DNA from: Nitrospirota bacterium
GTDB taxonomy: Bacteria; Nitrospirota; JACRHJ01
DNA: 64,000 bases
Assembly: GCA_021784575.1 (NCBI GenBank)
Contig: JAJYHX010000001.1
Location: 87,280 to 151,279 of the forward strand
Direction: 5' to 3'
This document shows, in pieces, positions 36,907 through 45,021 of this stretch; the first letter of the stretch is position 1, and the number at the start of each line of letters is the position of its first letter. Made by a program: the position numbers and the translations under genes. The notes below the pieces were generated by a model. The model had not been told where the DNA came from and searched no databases. It saw only the letters and a list, made by a program, of their open reading frames with translations.

Positions 36907-37021
36907 GCTGATAACCTCCTGTTTATCTGTAAGCTGCAATATGGCACCCGGATAAGTTATCACAACCTGGGCTATTATGCAAGAGCCGCGCCACATCGCC
37001 GTTGACTTTCGCTATCCGAAA

Positions 37022-38575
37022 ATGTTAACCTTTCTCATGCGTTTAAATTCCGCAAGACGGTTTTTTCTCCCGTTTTTTCTTCTGGCGGCGCTGCTTGCCC
37101 CGAAGACCGCCATATCCGATACCATAAAACCCGTCCTGGACATAAACGGAAGGCCCCCCAGGACACGCCTCGTGGAGCTCCCGCAGGAATCGATAAGGAT
37201 ATGGAAGGAGCGCCGCATAAAAAAGCCCATAACATTGCTCCTGATTTCCTCCGTCCCCGGCCTCTCTCCGCTTGATTGGAGAAGCTTCCGGAGGGCCGGG
37301 GCGCTCTACAGGAAGAACAGATGGAAAGAGCTTTTCAGCAAGAGCTATCCCACCGTGAAAAGCTATCCTGTCGGCCCAGGCAATTTCCTCTGGTTTGCGG
37401 CGAGGGAGCGGATTATAAGGGAGATTTACTGGGCCGCACCGGCCAAAAAATCCGTGAAAACCGAGTCGATAGCGCGATTCAGGAAGTTTTTAAAGTCCAT
37501 CGGCCTCCCGAAAAAAGAAGTCGGGTCTTTCAGGCATTACGGAAACGGGATACGCGGGACGGTGGCCGGAATCCCCGTAAGGATATATTCCATAAAGGAA
37601 CTCCCGAGGATAAGACGCAGGATGGTCGTGCTGGCCGACCCGAGTTTTTTTAAAGACCTGTATAAAAACGAGGTGAAGACGCCGTTTCTCGACCTATTCG
37701 GGGGCGTGATGAACCTGCTCGGCGCATCAGGCATCAGGGTATCGGACGCGACGGTATCGTATTCCAGCTCCCTTCCCCCTTTAAGCGTGAAGGACAGGTT
37801 CATAGCCCGCTACCTGTACACCTACTTTTCCGACCCCGAGAAGCTAAAAAACGGCCCTCCCGCAACGTGGAAACTCCGTTCCCAGGCCATGTACGACGGG
37901 ACCTTCTATCAACTCAACCAGGAGGCCCAGTCATATGCTGACGCCATAAAAAAAGACCCGAAAGACCCCTCCCTAACGTACGACATGGCGCTCGCCCTTT
38001 TCGAGCTGAAAGACCTAAAAGGAGTCCGGATGGAGCTTGCCAATACAGTCGGCCTCGACAAGAACTACTACCCCGCATATCTCGACATGGCAAGTTATTT
38101 CTACTCCCAGAAGATGCATCCGGATTCGGAGTATTTCGCCAGGATTGCCGCCAGGATCAATCCGAAAGACCCGCGGTGCTGGGAGGCCCTTTATAACGCC
38201 CTGTATGCCGAAAAGAGATACAAGGAGGCCGCAGTCGCCCTGGAGAAAAACATGGCGCTCGGCTTCAATAACCTGTACGTGATGGGGACTTACGCCCAGA
38301 CGCTCCTGCTCGCGGAGGAATACAAGAAGTCGGCGGGAGAATACGAGAAAATCCTTTCCCGCATAACTCCGATAGACCGAAAGACGAGGCCGTCCATTCT
38401 CGGGGAGCTTGCGGAGGCATATGAGGGCGAGGGCAGGATAAACAAGGCCCTTGACGCATACGACCAAGCTGCCGAGGGCATGACGGATGCGACGAAGAAG
38501 CACATCCTGCTGGAGAAGGCCAAGAAGCTGAGGGAGAAGTGGAAACCCTTCCTCACTCCCGGAAAGGCCCGGTAG
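37022..38575 (+). CDS. Exported TPR protein of unknown function
   Basis: 517 residues from ATG 37022; a start at 37037 (MRLNSARRFFLPF) is equally plausible. An N-terminal signal or anchor (about 8-30) leads to a 280-residue region I do not recognise. That region has LVELPQESIRIWKERRIKKPITLLLISS and Lys/Arg-rich helices. A C-terminal TPR block follows (about 290-500: AIKKDPKDPSLTYDMALALFELKDLKGV ..., KAKKLREKWKPFL). There is no Shine-Dalgarno at either start. Single gene. Confidence 0.72.
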   Translation: MLTFLMRLNSARRFFLPFFLLAALLAPKTAISDTIKPVLDINGRPPRTRLVELPQESIRIWKERRIKKPITLLLISSVPGLSPLDWRSFRRAGALYRKNRWKELFSKSYPTVKSYPVGPGNFLWFAARERIIREIYWAAPAKKSVKTESIARFRKFLKSIGLPKKEVGSFRHYGNGIRGTVAGIPVRIYSIKELPRIRRRMVVLADPSFFKDLYKNEVKTPFLDLFGGVMNLLGASGIRVSDATVSYSSSLPPLSVKDRFIARYLYTYFSDPEKLKNGPPATWKLRSQAMYDGTFYQLNQEAQSYADAIKKDPKDPSLTYDMALALFELKDLKGVRMELANTVGLDKNYYPAYLDMASYFYSQKMHPDSEYFARIAARINPKDPRCWEALYNALYAEKRYKEAAVALEKNMALGFNNLYVMGTYAQTLLLAEEYKKSAGEYEKILSRITPIDRKTRPSILGELAEAYEGEGRINKALDAYDQAAEGMTDATKKHILLEKAKKLREKWKPFLTPGKAR

Positions 38576-38734: not shown

Positions 38735-39997
38735 CTACCCAAGCTTGCCGAGGAGCGTCCTTACCTTGTTTTTGTAGCGGTCGTCCACCGGCATTTTCAA
38801 GTAGTTTTTCAGAGCTTCCTTTACCTTGACGTCCCGTGGCAAGGCCGAAACATTCCACGCGCGAATAACCGAGCGGACGACATAGAGGTTGTTCCAGTTG
38901 ATATACGGAAGCAGTATGTCGGCGTCGAACTTCATGCCGATGTCGGCAAGCGCACCCGCAACCGCGTCCACTACGTCGTCCGACTGTTTTCCTTTGTTTT
39001 TAAGCAGTTCCTGCAAAGGCAGGAGCGCCTGGGCCGCCTTGAGCGCGCCAAGCCGCCGGGCCGCCGCCGCGGCAACGGAAATGTCGTTGTCCTTAAGCGC
39101 GGCAACAAGCGGCGCCACGGCCTGCCCGTTTTCGCCGCACCTGAAGACAGCCTCCGCGGAAAGCGCCCGCACCCTGGGGTCCGGGTCACTCAGGAGCATT
39201 TCCGAAAGTATCCTGAAGCATTTGACATCTCTTAGCTTTGTTGCGAGCTGAACGGAATTCTTACGCACATCCGTATCCGGGTCCTTGAGGAGCGCCGGGA
39301 GCTCTTTTACGGAAAAATTGGGGGCCATGGCGAGGAAATATGCCGATGCGGCGCGCCGGATTTTTACGTCTTTATCGCCCAGCAGCCTTTCCATGTCTTC
39401 CCTGGCCGCAGGGTCGAGCCAGGAAAGCTCCACATCCGCCGCCGCCCGCCTTACGTAAATTCGTTTATCCTTCAGGCGATCCTTAAGTTTTTCCCGGTAA
39501 TTTGGGGCCTTTATCGACGCAAGAACCGCCGCCGCCGACTGGCATCGGGACGGGTCTTCAATGGCCGCGAAGAGATACGGGACGGAGTGGCCGCCAAGGG
39601 CGAAGAGGGCGTTTTCTACGGCCTCCAGAGATTTTTTATCCTTTAAATTCAAGAGGTCGGCAAGCGGACCCGCCGAACGCTTGTCCTTTATGCCGTTTAA
39701 TACGAAGACAAGCTCCGGCACATATTCCCGCTTGCCAAGCGCATGAAGGAGCGCGGGCACCGCCCGCCCGCCCATGTTTACAAGCGCAAACCGGGCCTTT
39801 GCCCTCGTCGCGAGCGATCCTTTTTCGGCAAGGTTTATCAAGGCCTTACAGTCGCCTCCTTTAGCCAGTTTGGCGACGGATACAGTGGCGTCGGCTTCGG
39901 ATGCGGCTGAGACGCCCGCGGGCCTGTTTGCCAACGCATGGACAGGCGAAGGGATTAATAACGTGGCGAAAAGGAGGGCGGCGGCAAGGGCTTTCAT
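38735..39997 (-). CDS. Exported HEAT-repeat protein
   Basis: 420 residues from the ATG at 39997, with GGAGGAAAG directly upstream. Signal peptide (KALAAALLFATLLIPSPVHA), then about ten HEAT-like units (for example KDKDVKIRRAASAYFLAMAP, DPDTDVRKNSVQLATKLRD, DPDPRVRALSAEAVFRCGE). It is a periplasmic solenoid scaffold with no catalytic motif. It lies directly downstream of the sigma-54 microgene but is separated from it by a strong terminator, so it is probably transcribed on its own or by read-through. Confidence 0.78.
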   Translation of the reverse strand: MKALAAALLFATLLIPSPVHALANRPAGVSAASEADATVSVAKLAKGGDCKALINLAEKGSLATRAKARFALVNMGGRAVPALLHALGKREYVPELVFVLNGIKDKRSAGPLADLLNLKDKKSLEAVENALFALGGHSVPYLFAAIEDPSRCQSAAAVLASIKAPNYREKLKDRLKDKRIYVRRAAADVELSWLDPAAREDMERLLGDKDVKIRRAASAYFLAMAPNFSVKELPALLKDPDTDVRKNSVQLATKLRDVKCFRILSEMLLSDPDPRVRALSAEAVFRCGENGQAVAPLVAALKDNDISVAAAAARRLGALKAAQALLPLQELLKNKGKQSDDVVDAVAGALADIGMKFDADILLPYINWNNLYVVRSVIRAWNVSALPRDVKVKEALKNYLKMPVDDRYKNKVRTLLGKLG

Positions 39998-40043: not shown

Positions 40044-40085
40044 TAAAAAAGGCAAGGCGCGTCCTGGATACGGAGCGCGCCTTGC
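40044..40085 (-). terminator. Intrinsic terminator of the microgene
   Basis: On the minus strand GCAAGGCGCG (40085-40076) pairs perfectly with CGCGCCTTGC (40061-40052), followed by CTTTTTTATCC. A 10-bp GC-rich stem with a T-run is a textbook intrinsic terminator, about 37 nt after the microgene stop. Confidence 0.8.
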
Positions 40086-40121
40086 GGAGAACTGGAAGCT
40101 GACCTTTTCGAGCCTCCCGCT

Positions 40122-40184
40122 TTAGCAGGGATGCACGCTGGAGCTCCCGACAACCTGGGGTTTGGAGTATTTTATCTTCCTCAC
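40122..40184 (-). CDS. Sigma-54-promoted 20-residue peptide gene
   Basis: GTG start (40184-40182), 20 codons, TAA at 40124-40122. The peptide is MRKIKYSKPQVVGSSSVHPC: a basic leader, a Y-x-x-P-x-V segment, then GSSSVHPC ending in Cys. AGGAGAAAGGGGG is the Shine-Dalgarno, spaced 7 nt. The unit is complete: consensus sigma-54 promoter (40221-40237), leader of about 26 nt, ORF, terminator (40044-40085), giving a transcript of about 165 nt. Size and composition recall precursors of ribosomally made, post-translationally modified peptides. No radical-SAM or other modifying enzyme is in the window. It could instead be an sRNA with a chance ORF. I do not recognise a named family with certainty. Confidence 0.6.
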   Translation of the reverse strand: MRKIKYSKPQVVGSSSVHPC

Positions 40185-40220
40185 CGGTTCACCCCCTTTC
40201 TCCTTATGAATGAAACATAA

Positions 40221-40237
40221 AGCAAACCGCGTGCCAG
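40221..40237 (-). promoter_or_regulatory. Sigma-54 promoter (-24/-12)
   Basis: Minus strand CTGGCACGCGGTTTGCT: GG at -25/-24 and GC at -13/-12 with the exact spacing, and agreement with TGGCACG-N4-TTGCW at every defined position. It lies 67 nt after the stop of a sigma-54 activator gene and drives the 20-codon ORF. Predicted transcription start near 40210. Confidence 0.85.
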
Positions 40238-40303: not shown

Positions 40304-41674
40304 TTAGAGCAGGCCGAACTTTTTCATGCGTCTGCGGAAGGCGTCTCTCTGCACGCCCAGGAGGTCCGCAGCCTTGCTCTGGTTGCCGCCCGCCACTGTA
40401 AGCGCCTGTTTTACAAGCTCTTCTTCTACCTTCTCAAGCGACATCCCTTCCTTGGGAATGCATATGGAAGAAGCTGCGGGGGATGCGGGCGCTATTCCGC
40501 CGACGAGCTCCACCGGCAGGTGTTCGAGCAGGAGAATGTCCTCGCTTTCCAGTATCATTGCGCGCTCTATGACATTTTTCAGCTCCCGGATGTTGCCGGG
40601 CCAGTCGTACCGGATAAGGAATTCCCTGGCTTTTTCCGAGATTTCCTTGACGGTTTTACGAAACTCCGCGTTGAACAGCTCTATGAAATATCTTGTGAGC
40701 GGGAGGATGTCTTCCTTGCGTTCCCTCAAGGGCGGCAGGTATATGGGCACGACCTGGAGACGGTAATACAGGTCTTTCCTGAACCTGTTCTCCATCATCA
40801 GCTTCTTTATGTCCTGGTTCGTGGCCGATATGACCCGGACGTCAACCTGGATGTCCTTTACGCCTCCGACCCGTTTGAAGATCTTGTCTTCCAGGATGCG
40901 AAGGAGCTTGGCCTGCATGGCGTAAGGCATGTCGCCTATCTCGTCCAGGAATACCGAGCCTCCGTCCGCAAGCTCCAACAGACCCTTTTTCTGGACTTTT
41001 GCGTCCGTAAAGGCGCCTTTTTCGTGCCCCAACAGCTCGGATTCGAGGAGGTTTTCGGGGAGTGAGGCGCAGTTTATTGCCATGAAAGGCTTGTCCGCGC
41101 GTGAACTGTTTGCGTGGACGGCCCTGGCCACTACCTCCTTTCCCGTCCCGGACTCGCCCTGGATAAGAACTGTGCTGGCGTCGGACTGGGCTATCTTCTG
41201 GATCATTTCGAGGACGTTTAAGATTGCGCGGCTTTTCCCGATTATGTTGGAGGAATGGGCGGTTGTTTTCTGCTGTTCTTTTAAGAGCCTTACCTCTTCC
41301 CGGAGCGAGACCGTCTCCAGCGCCTTCCTGATGGCAATGGTAATCTCGTCAAGGTTGAAAGGCTTGCTTATGTAGTCGTACGCGCCAAGCTTCATGGCCT
41401 TTACCGCCGTCTCAAGCATCCCGTGCGCAGTTATCATTATGATGATAATGTCTTTGTTTATTTCCTTTATCCTGCCCAGCGCCTCGATTCCCTGTATGCC
41501 GGGGAGCTGGTTGTCGAGCAGGACCAGATCCGGCGCAAGGTCAGCCGTCATCTGAAGCGCCTTCTCTCCGTCCTCCGCGGTATATACGTCGTAGCCTTCC
41601 TTGCCCAGGTGCTGCTCAAGAGTCCATCGGATTAAGTGCTCGTCGTCCACTACCAGTATCTTGGTTTTTTCCAT
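40304..41674 (-). CDS. Sigma-54-dependent response regulator with GAFTDA loop
   Basis: 456 residues: receiver (1-120, phospho-acceptor D54 in LLDNQLPG), AAA+ activator (Walker A GESGTGKE), C-terminal Fis HTH (GGNQSKAADLLGVQRDAFRRRMKKF). The sigma-54 contact loop reads GAFTDA, not GAFTGA. It lies 18 nt downstream of the haem-motif kinase gene, its likely partner, and directly upstream of the consensus sigma-54 promoter at 40221. That promoter is the obvious candidate target. Confidence 0.92.
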   Translation of the reverse strand: MEKTKILVVDDEHLIRWTLEQHLGKEGYDVYTAEDGEKALQMTADLAPDLVLLDNQLPGIQGIEALGRIKEINKDIIIIMITAHGMLETAVKAMKLGAYDYISKPFNLDEITIAIRKALETVSLREEVRLLKEQQKTTAHSSNIIGKSRAILNVLEMIQKIAQSDASTVLIQGESGTGKEVVARAVHANSSRADKPFMAINCASLPENLLESELLGHEKGAFTDAKVQKKGLLELADGGSVFLDEIGDMPYAMQAKLLRILEDKIFKRVGGVKDIQVDVRVISATNQDIKKLMMENRFRKDLYYRLQVVPIYLPPLRERKEDILPLTRYFIELFNAEFRKTVKEISEKAREFLIRYDWPGNIRELKNVIERAMILESEDILLLEHLPVELVGGIAPASPAASSICIPKEGMSLEKVEEELVKQALTVAGGNQSKAADLLGVQRDAFRRRMKKFGLL

Positions 41675-41692: not shown

Positions 41693-43237
41693 TTATACGG
41701 CCGCCTCAGGCATCCTGTCTTTCGCCGCCAGCAGATAAATCGTGAAGACCGTCCCTTTGCCGGGAACGGAATCCACGGTAATGCTCCCTCCGTGCTGCTC
41801 GATTATCTTCTGGGTAATGGACAGGCCAAGGCCCGTCCCCTGCTGCCGCGTTGTAAAGAAGGGGTTGAATATCTTTTCCAGGTTCTCCGGCAGTATGCCT
41901 TTCCCCGTATCGGATATGGCTATGGAGACCGTTTCCGAATCCGGCTCGCGGAGGTCTTCGCCGGCTTCCGGATCCGTTTTTTGCGCCGCCGCGCCGGAAT
42001 CCGGCTTGATGGAGGTCTCTATAAGCATTTCGCCGCCTTCCGGCATAGCCTGGACGCCGTTCAGAATTATATTAAGAAATACCTGCTGAAGAAGCTCCGG
42101 GTCTCCCGAAACGTCGGGGATATCCGGCAAAAGTTCCTTGCGCACTTTTACCCTGTTCTTCGAGAACTGCGGCGAGAGAAAGGCTATTATCTTTTCCAAC
42201 AGCTCGTTTATATTCAATTCGGCGAGGTTCGGCGCCGGCGGCCTGGCAAAGGAAAGCAGGTTTTTGACGGCCTTGTCCAGCCGGTCTATCTGTTCCAGGA
42301 CTTCCTTTATTATCTTGTGCCTGGAGTCCTCCGGCGGAAAGTCCCTGCCCAGTATCTGTATCACTCCAGCTATGCCCGTGAGGGGGTTTTTGATCTCGTG
42401 GGCAATCCCCGCAGCCATCTCGCCCACCGTAGCCAGCCTGTCCGCCCTCCTCATCTGTTCGTAGTGGAGCTTCTCGACCTTCCTCTTTGTCTTGTTGAGC
42501 TTTATGATCATGGAATTGAAGCTGTGGGCAAGCCTGCCAAGCTCGTCCTCGGAAACGACCTTCGCCCGGACATCGAGCCCTTCCTCGGCCTTCGCCATGG
42601 TATTCGTAAGGTCTATTATAGGGTTCGTGACCATCCAGGAAAGGAGCACGGAGAGCCCAAACGCAAGGAGCACGGTTATGGAGGCGGCCCAGATCACCAT
42701 TGTCTTCTTGAGCTTGGCCACATGTCTTTCCATCTCGTCAAGCGAGACATCAACCTCCAGAACGCCGTTTATTCTCTGGCTTGCGTCGTGGCATCGATAG
42801 CACTCCGGGCGGTTCAGTATGGGACGGAGGTTCCGCAGTATCACGTCTCCGCGCTCGTTTTTATCCTGTATGATTATATTCGACTGATCTTCTATCTGCA
42901 TGGAGGAAAAGTCGAGGTTCGCGCGCATGCCTATTTCCGATTCCCGCGCAGACCTCAGCACGAATCCGTCCGCATCGAGGACCCGGATTGCGTATATTTT
43001 GTTATGCGTCCCAACCATCTCCACTATCCTCTGCACGTCCTGGCTTCTGCCTTCGAGCATGGCGGTCTCCAGGGAGCGCTCTATGGTATTGGCAAGGATA
43101 GTGAGCTTGTCCTCCGTAAGCTTCCGAAGCTCCATTATCTGGAGGTCTACGATTATCCAGGTGCCAAGTCCTATGGCCAGCATGAGAATGGCGACGGTAA
43201 AGAAAATTATTTTAGTCCTTAAGCTCTTGAAAAACAT
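41693..43237 (-). CDS. Membrane histidine kinase with periplasmic CxxCH motif
   Basis: 514 residues. Membrane segments at about 10-30 and 180-202 enclose a periplasmic sensor domain. It carries CYRCH (146-150) in the context [21 protein letters not shown], a motif shared with c-haem or metal-binding sensor domains. HAMP, HisKA ([18 protein letters not shown], phospho-His about 280) and HATPase ([42 protein letters not shown]) follow. A gas, redox or metal cue is likely; haem attachment is inference. It begins 79 nt after the last pseudopilin gene of the secretion operon, on the same strand. Confidence 0.9.
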
Positions 43238-43316: not shown

Positions 43317-43961
43317 CTACCCTCCGCCGAAAGGACTCTGGGGGCTGACGGGAACTTGTCCTGCTTGTGGTGTTGCCGCTCCCCCCGGGGTTATTTGGGT
43401 CTGACCGGCGGCGGGAACGAGTGTCCCTCCCGGATTTATCTGGGTCGCTGTGCTCGGGCTGTAATCGAACATCCACTCGGAGTATTTGGTCTTGCCCGTG
43501 AAGCTTATATCGTCCAGATCGAAATTACTCGTTTTCAACGGTCTTTTGTCGCTGATGCTGTGCACACCGCCAATGGCTTCGCCGGACATGACTGATGCGC
43601 CCTCGATGGTGTTGGGCGCGGCGCCGGGCGGCGGCGGGGGCGGATCAAGCGCCCAGTCGGCCTTTCCGGTCATGGGGTCTTTATATATCTTTCGCAAGTC
43701 TCTTACGGGGTTAAGATACGCCGGGTCTTCCAGGAGGTCTTGCAGGGATGTCGGATATTTGCCCTTGTGCCTTGGGTCGTTGTAATACCGCTCGATAGCC
43801 AGCCGGAACTGGTTACCGCGCCAGAGCAGTTCCTTTTCCTTCTCTTCCCTGGTAAAAAGCCTCCAGGAGTGTCCGAGCGCCGCCGAGGTTATGCCGATAA
43901 TCAGTATGATCATCAGCATACCCATGTAAGTGAAGCCGGCGTTGTTTTTACCAGTCCGCAT
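43317..43961 (-). CDS. Minor pseudopilin-like protein lacking Glu5
   Basis: 214 residues. The prepilin leader MRTGKNNAG/FTYMGMLMIILIIGI is followed by a helix, but position 5 of the mature protein is Gly rather than Glu, as in GspK-type minor pseudopilins. The middle has YPTSLQDLLEDPAYLNPVRDLRKIYKDPMTGKADW, shared with the other two pseudopilins. The C-terminal 60 residues are Pro/Gly/Gln low complexity. It overlaps the preceding pseudopilin by 14 nt. Confidence 0.82.
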   Translation of the reverse strand: MRTGKNNAGFTYMGMLMIILIIGITSAALGHSWRLFTREEKEKELLWRGNQFRLAIERYYNDPRHKGKYPTSLQDLLEDPAYLNPVRDLRKIYKDPMTGKADWALDPPPPPPGAAPNTIEGASVMSGEAIGGVHSISDKRPLKTSNFDLDDISFTGKTKYSEWMFDYSPSTATQINPGGTLVPAAGQTQITPGGAATPQAGQVPVSPQSPFGGG

Positions 43962-44355
43962 AGCTCACACCGTTCGTTCCTATCTTGTCGCTCCCGCTAT
44001 GGATGTCGTAAATACCGCCGGAGTCCGAGGAATCAGAGGAGTCGGAGCTGTCGCCCGTGTAATATTCAAAACGCCACGTTGTCTTAGAACCCGTCATGGG
44101 GTCGGGCGGGATGGTTCGCATGTAGCCTTTTGCGACAAGGTCGTCCAGTGTGTCCGGGTATTTGCCGTTGTCCGCGTAATACTGGTCGAGGACATTGCGG
44201 AGGTTGAAGAGGTCTTCTTTTAGTGTGGCCTCCTTGGCTTTGAGGACCGCCGTCTTGAACATCGGCTGGGCAAGTGTCGCAAGTATACCGATTATGGCTA
44301 TGACCACCATCAGTTCCAGGAGAGTAAAGCCTTTTTTCCCTCTTAAAACGTTCAT
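43948..44355 (-). CDS. GspG-like major pseudopilin
   Basis: 135 residues. Prepilin site MNVLRGKKG/FTLLELMVVIAIIGILATLAQP with Glu5, then the GspG core ALYxxKEATLKEDLFNLRNVLDQYYADNGKYPDTLDDLV and IPPDPMTGSKTTWRFEY. The end (GTNGVSYADW) resembles the calcium-site tail of GspG. Probably the main subunit of the pseudopilus. An SDSSDSSDS stretch is in the loop. Confidence 0.9.
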   Translation of the reverse strand: MNVLRGKKGFTLLELMVVIAIIGILATLAQPMFKTAVLKAKEATLKEDLFNLRNVLDQYYADNGKYPDTLDDLVAKGYMRTIPPDPMTGSKTTWRFEYYTGDSSDSSDSSDSGGIYDIHSGSDKIGTNGVSYADW

Positions 44356-44442
44356 TTTTACCTTTCCGGCATGGATTGGATCATTTCTGGAGCGTCCCGG
44401 TCATGACGGCAACCCTCCTTTTCGCGAATACGCACGAGTGTC

Positions 44443-45021
44443 CTACCAGTCCGCGTATTTCGTCCCGTCCAGCGCGGTGCCGCTGGAAAGCGAGTAGACG
44501 TCGAACACGTCCTGTCCGCCCCATACCGTGCTCTCCGGATCGTCCGCGTTGCTCCTCATGCCCCATTTCGCCTTGCCGGTCATCGGGTCTACCGGGATTT
44601 TGCGAAGGAGCCTTATAGCCTTCGGGAACTGTTGTGCCGCCGCCCCCACCGCGCTTCCCCCCGCAGGCTGTGAAAGCATCGCAGTCGCGAGCGCCCCGGG
44701 CGGGACTTGAAGCGGTATCAGCCGGGTCAAAGTCTTCAGGGTTGGGGGATACCCCGTAGGGGCGTTATCCGTTACGCTGGTCTGGGTGCCGGAGGCCTGA
44801 GCAATCCGGCCTTCGTCGTAGAGCTTCTTGTATTCGTCGATTGCGTCGCGCATCTCTCTCAAGTCGGCCCTAAGCTCCGCTTCCTTCTCGCGCTTGACGG
44901 TCATGCGGATGAGCGGCATTGATATGGTAGATAGAATCGACAACACAACCATGACGACCACAAGTTCCGTCAGGGTAATGCCGCGCTCGTTAAAACATTT
45001 TGTTGCCGCCGGTTTTTTCAT
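44443..45021 (-). CDS. Pseudopilin (GspG/OxpG-like)
   Basis: 192 residues. Prepilin site CFNERG/ITLTELVVVMVVLSILSTISMP with Glu5, then EAELRADLREMRDAIDEYKKLYDEG and IPVDPMTGKAKWGM. An Ala/Gly/Pro-rich insert (about 105-140) is present. The tail GTALDGTKYADW matches that of the next pseudopilin. Its start is 23 nt after the secretin stop. Confidence 0.87.
   Translation of the reverse strand: MKKPAATKCFNERGITLTELVVVMVVLSILSTISMPLIRMTVKREKEAELRADLREMRDAIDEYKKLYDEGRIAQASGTQTSVTDNAPTGYPPTLKTLTRLIPLQVPPGALATAMLSQPAGGSAVGAAAQQFPKAIRLLRKIPVDPMTGKAKWGMRSNADDPESTVWGGQDVFDVYSLSSGTALDGTKYADW

Follow-up and report, generated by a model that had tools for sequence, protein, structure and literature searches.

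A conserved sigma-54-associated microgene encodes a likely precursor peptide of the GeoRSP radical SAM system

A 20-codon gene on the minus strand of the window (the whole stretch of 64,000 nucleotides of a Nitrospirota genome that was analyzed) is a conserved protein-coding gene with a conserved sigma-54 promoter and terminator, and its product is likely the precursor, i.e. the substrate, of the GeoRSP system, produced under sigma-54 control. This assignment rests on genomic linkage, with neither modification nor a transcript observed. What the comparison of genomes shows is that the peptide family tracks the GeoRSP enzyme, and is often encoded right after its gene. The peptide would thereby provide a likely substrate for a widespread radical SAM system without a peptide model that we could find, in bacteria known for extracellular electron transfer, and, if the assignment is right, the chemistry can be tested directly with a 20-residue peptide and three enzymes.

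The precursor-peptide open reading frame (ORF), of the form (V/M)RKIKYSKPQVVGSSSVHPC, occupies positions 40122–40184 (-); its GTG start lies at 40184, its 20 codons span 40184–40125 and a TAA stop follows at 40124–40122, giving the product VRKIKYSKPQVVGSSSVHPC. Upstream lies the sigma-54 (-24/-12) promoter TGGCACGCGGTTTGCT (40221–40236, -), and no other site in the window matches the consensus TGGCACGNNNNTTGCW exactly; when up to one mismatch was allowed, two sites were found vs. 0.43 expected from shuffled sequence. The Shine-Dalgarno region, AAGGAGAAAGGGGGTGA, is positioned 5' of the GTG, and the gene ends in an intrinsic terminator (40045–40085, -), consisting of a GC hairpin, GCAAGGCGCG-(bulge)-TCC...GGA-CGCGCCTTGC, followed by TTTTTT. 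The bulge and the loop hid this hairpin from a simple terminator scan, and it is visible in the predicted fold of the 169-nt transcript (z = -3.1); a scan of the window against Rfam matched no family. The first-pass annotation, made from the sequence without database searches, had described an exact -24/-12 promoter, a Shine-Dalgarno, a GTG-started ORF of 20 codons and a GC hairpin with T-run, all of which held, with every element on the minus strand; it had also stated that such well-matching sigma-54 sites are rare by chance.

Each of these elements is conserved. The sigma-54 site is kept in five of five same-genus genomes (the window's own included) as TGGCAYGYRGTTTGCT, and reads GGGCACGGTTCTTGCA in the same-family genome G005, with -24/-12 spacing that is both correct and conserved; the Shine-Dalgarno and the hairpin, the latter located 3' of the same-genus copies, are likewise conserved among the five. 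Across the wider peptide family, sigma-54-like sites were found 5' of 17 of 145 peptides, whereas the reverse strand gave 1 of 145; several of the 17 come from the same genus, and such sites are enriched, not universal. A second sigma-54-like site in the window, with one mismatch, is found at 36978–36993 (-), at the start of the region of a DUF1573 gene.

All five same-genus genomes carry the peptide, and the ORFs differ within the genus only synonymously (TAC/TAT and AAA/AAG, with AAG/AAA in addition at locus L003), while an identical peptide is encoded in the relatives at loci L101 and L150, labelled Nitrospirae. A tail search combined with a pattern scan covering 84,980 species genomes returned at least about 150 distinct sites, a count that, like the taxonomic range, is a lower bound. 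The family takes the form Y..P.(V/I).(G/A)...(V/I/M)HPC-stop, is 18–20 residues long and has an invariant His-Pro-Cys; 80 of the 82 pattern matches (80 listed loci) are clear members. Hosts are nearly all Nitrospirota or Desulfuromonadia-type bacteria (Geobacter, Desulfuromonas, Malonomonas, Geoalkalibacter), and a cultivated carrier is Pelotalea chapellei DSM 13688 (locus L107). A few isolated records bear other names, and the one among them labelled Phycisphaerae probably represents a mis-binned genome. Because the peptide sequence is conserved across two phyla, in otherwise unrelated DNA contexts, the microgene is more than a chance ORF. Codon positions that were fixed by the search pattern are unusable as evidence of selection; at the positions left free by it, residues are kept and codons vary, e.g. 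serine is encoded by both AGY and TCN. Many genomes hold 2–6 copies, and one holds about 15, mostly beside secreted proteins.

The peptides had no match among NCBIfam or Pfam models (members shorter than 20 residues were left out of the scan), and a PDB sequence search gave no match to the family. No selenocysteine (TGA) variant of the final cysteine was present among the 82 pattern matches, the lone TGA match lying outside the family. With only 18–20 residues and no Pfam or NCBIfam model, the family is easily overlooked. To our knowledge the GeoRSP system has no named substrate, and we found no description of a GeoRSP peptide in the open-access literature searched; subscription journals were largely outside this scope, and a prior description is possible.

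The first-pass annotation had noted the absence of a maturase from the window and suggested that it may lie elsewhere, which held: a genome search identified, on the same contig at a distance of about 450 kb, a PqqD-type chaperone gene (TIGR04302; G000:C6:578018-578323, 106.9 bits against a cut-off of 100) directly upstream of the gene for the GeoRSP radical SAM/SPASM enzyme (TIGR04303; 578322-579317, 455 bits against a cut-off of 400). This pair adjoins secreted beta-helix proteins. For the SPASM partner (TIGR04304) there is only a divergent candidate, a SPASM protein encoded elsewhere on the contig (90–100 bits vs. a cut-off of 300). Among 296 genomes of the phylum, the peptide occurs in all 16 that bear the enzyme (Fisher 1.9e-22), and in 21 altogether at E 0.05 (two being borderline hits). 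Within Geobacter's class (244 genomes) the enzyme was found in 78, the peptide in 84 and both in 76 (Fisher 4e-51). These p-values overstate independence, as the genomes are related. When genomes were instead picked by the peptide pattern alone, 29 of 29 had the enzyme, 23 of them above the curated cut-off, and most of the remaining six were fragments at contig ends or only a few bits short.

Direct adjacency is a stronger argument than co-occurrence. In 36 of the 76 class genomes the peptide ORF follows the enzyme gene in the same orientation, starting 39–208 bp behind it (genome G025 has an enzyme-peptide gap of about 0.1 kb), and in several Nitrospirota the peptides come last in a long GeoRSP operon, composed of a SPASM protein, the enzyme, a PqqD-type protein, a cupin, a Cu/Zn efflux-related permease, a YedE-type transporter, and TPR, PhnD-like, ResB-like, CarboxypepD_reg and beta-helix proteins. 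Overall, TIGR04303 is encoded in the window's own genome and, with few exceptions, in the peptide-bearing genomes tested, and the same holds for TIGR04302 in those where it was sought; many genomes have the peptide within or next to a GeoRSP operon. The CX3CX2C motif and seven SPASM cysteines are intact in the own genome's enzyme and in all 55 enzymes collected, and the nearest solved relative of the enzyme is PqqE (6c8v, E 1.3e-23). A small ORF that is conserved, and that keeps company with a modifying enzyme from genome to genome, is what a RiPP precursor should show, so that the RiPP-like precursor suggested by the first-pass annotation is supported and can now be specified as a GeoRSP precursor, with its modification still only inferred. 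We also observed, in GeoRSP operons, a YedE-family putative selenium transporter (L081:7732-8958, 388 bits) and a Cu/Zn efflux-related permease (L081:5775-7688), which might hint at a metal, sulfur or selenium link.

Several observations do not fit this picture neatly. In the window's genus, peptide and enzyme are about 450 kb apart, which counts against the assignment, as do the remote location and the low score, far short of the family cut-off, of the own genome's candidate SPASM partner. No peptide was detected in the enzyme-bearing genomes G345 and G467, and inspection of the cytochrome and operon loci of the former and the operon contig of the latter revealed no diverged peptide. Conversely, the enzyme was not detected in eight peptide-bearing genomes of Geobacter's class, nor in G005, G062 and G083 of the phylum, some of these genomes being incomplete.

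In the mechanism that we propose, the conserved N-terminal half, MKKxxYxKP, would be recognized by the PqqD-type chaperone (TIGR04302), and the TIGR04303 enzyme, together with its SPASM partner TIGR04304, would modify the C-terminal core GSSSVHPC; the binding is inferred, as is the modification, and neither modification nor leader cleavage has been observed. By analogy, a short peptide, a PqqD-type protein and a SPASM enzyme fit the plan of PQQ (PqqA/PqqD/PqqE) and mycofactocin (MftA/MftB/MftC), which share the very short precursor, the PqqD-type chaperone and the SPASM radical SAM enzyme, and whose study used the same phylogenetic-profiling logic (PMC3023750). In contrast to these systems, the GeoRSP peptide ends in VHPC and is present in several to many precursor copies per genome, there is an extra SPASM-only protein, and the associated proteins are extracellular cytochromes rather than soluble dehydrogenases; the peptide also fits neither the PqqA nor the MftA model, having no match in NCBIfam or Pfam, where NCBIfam models of GeoRSP cover the enzymes only. 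Sactipeptide and ranthipeptide precursors are similar in combining a Cys-containing peptide with a SPASM radical SAM enzyme, but the GeoRSP peptide usually has one terminal Cys and no multi-Cys core, and the own enzyme scores far below the cut-offs of those families. The SbtA/SbtM thio(seleno)oxazole system (TIGR04082) also pairs a radical SAM maturase with a short peptide; unlike it, the GeoRSP peptide family yielded no TGA-for-Cys member. The SbtM/selenobiotic system was rejected for the own genome, in which the best enzyme reached 83 of 350 bits, far below the cut-off. A full-length SbtM-type maturase (L039:4169-5755, 725 bits) coexists with GeoRSP in the Nitrospirota genome G018.

A weaker inference would place the action of the product at the cell envelope or beyond it, in concert with the surface proteins whose genes immediately precede many copies (multiheme cytochromes, CarboxypepD_reg and beta-helix proteins). 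At 156 sites, a same-strand gene ends within 600 bp upstream in 125 cases and an opposite-strand gene in 13, with a median gap of 71 bp. The 125 same-strand genes include 40 multiheme cytochromes and 22 copies of the GeoRSP enzyme gene, with CarboxypepD_reg proteins accounting for many of the others, and multiheme genes are enriched upstream of the peptide (58 multiheme genes among 1037; Fisher 3e-26); gene calls for these counts came from a simple purpose-made caller. The first-pass annotation had proposed looking for conserved neighbors in related genomes, and the enzyme, multiheme cytochromes and other surface proteins do recur beside the peptide. The surface neighbors themselves vary (cytochrome, CarboxypepD_reg, fn3, beta-helix), and they point, on genomic context only and without any experiment, to a possible cell-surface role for the product.

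The own genome's second peptide copy lies directly after the gene of a 2872-residue multiheme cytochrome ending in WNNKTPW. A C-terminal WNxxTPW tail is common to giant multiheme cytochromes (G000:C6:305631-305654, at locus L031; also L268, L270 and L277-L286). It was found in 18 of 35 GeoRSP-linked genomes (enzyme or peptide) vs. 1 of 33 others; all ten WNxxTPW genes inspected encode heme-binding motifs, and about half have a peptide immediately 3'. The tail could be a sorting or attachment signal. A PDB sequence search with a representative cytochrome gave no match. Large fn3/secreted proteins located by peptides or in GeoRSP genomes share another tail, like TPAYQTGDGTCQ (L081, L084, L185, L287).

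With giant multiheme cytochromes as its partners, the peptide might give rise to a component of extracellular electron transfer. A bolder reading, which we regard as no more than possible, is that modified GeoRSP peptides are exported and that each has its own partner among the extracellular electron-transfer and adhesive surface proteins, e.g. a multiheme cytochrome to which it is covalently attached or tightly bound; if true, they would constitute an unrecognized peptide-derived part of the extracellular electron conduits of Geobacter-like and Nitrospirota bacteria.

Three other explanations were considered. The one that survives best, while still unlikely, is a sub-version of the precursor assignment with another end product, namely that the peptide merely supplies the atoms of a redox cofactor that diffuses freely, in the way that PqqA does for PQQ. 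The relatedness of the enzyme by sequence to PqqE and MftC and the presence of a PqqD-type protein speak for it, but one precursor gene would then be enough, and yet 2–6 copies are common and about 15 occur in one genome, mostly by different secreted proteins. The second, which we consider very unlikely, is that the peptide, while part of the GeoRSP system, stays unmodified and serves the adjacent surface protein as a small partner (guide, chaperone or subunit), and that the enzyme modifies the surface protein instead. It is favored by the same-strand orientation of the upstream gene at 125 of 138 sites (40 of them multiheme cytochromes), by the roughly 15 peptides of one genome, mostly by secreted proteins, and by the cytochrome tail WNxxTPW being largely confined to GeoRSP genomes. 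Against it, the common denominator is the enzyme whereas the surface neighbors vary, many genomes have the peptide directly after the enzyme gene, and the invariant C-terminal HPC and tiny size suit a substrate core. Finally, a sigma-54-driven small RNA or leader with an incidental ORF, for which the strong transcript fold (z -3.1) and the hairpin kept in the genus could be cited, is all but excluded by the codon pattern, with amino acids kept and synonymous change both within the genus and across phyla; the first-pass annotation had named unconserved ORF codons with only RNA structure kept as grounds for abandoning its proposal, and this is not what we found; nor did its other sequence-level ground apply, a synonymous/non-synonymous ratio near 1, since every change seen within the genus was synonymous.

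Returning to the peptide as a GeoRSP precursor, its candidate activator in the window is an NtrC-type response regulator (40304–41674, -) with receiver, sigma-54 activator and Fis HTH domains, identified by Pfam and synteny, whose gene is directly upstream of the peptide in the tested same-genus loci and in G005. The next gene encodes a sensor kinase (41693–43237, -) whose periplasmic sensor domain is of the Mcp40H-20 type (Pfam) and akin to the heme sensors of Geobacter chemoreceptors. A CYRCH (c-type heme) motif was read directly in the kinase, which is likely a heme-based periplasmic sensor, an inference from sequence alone. The arrangement of the peptide behind regulator and kinase recurs in the genus and in G005, and it is likely that the adjacent regulator, under the heme-type kinase, switches on the window copy. 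As for control by the adjacent activator, suggested by the first-pass annotation, the arrangement is conserved, and the regulation, including dependence on RpoN and the activator, is inferred without expression data.

On the other side of the microgene, past the terminator, the next gene 3' of the peptide encodes a secreted HEAT-repeat protein (38735–39994, -; Pfam HEAT_2), a neighbor common to the same-genus loci L003, L005, L101 and L150. Farther along lies a TPR protein (36977–38575, +) with homologues near other peptide copies, i.e. the own genome's second copy (L031:9088-10191, 27% identity) and that of G005 (L033:13979-15556, 39% identity); this TPR family, of unassigned function, is thereby found near three peptide loci (the own two and that of G005). 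Three pseudopilin-like proteins with prepilin-type N-termini (43317–45021, -) adjoin the sensor kinase.
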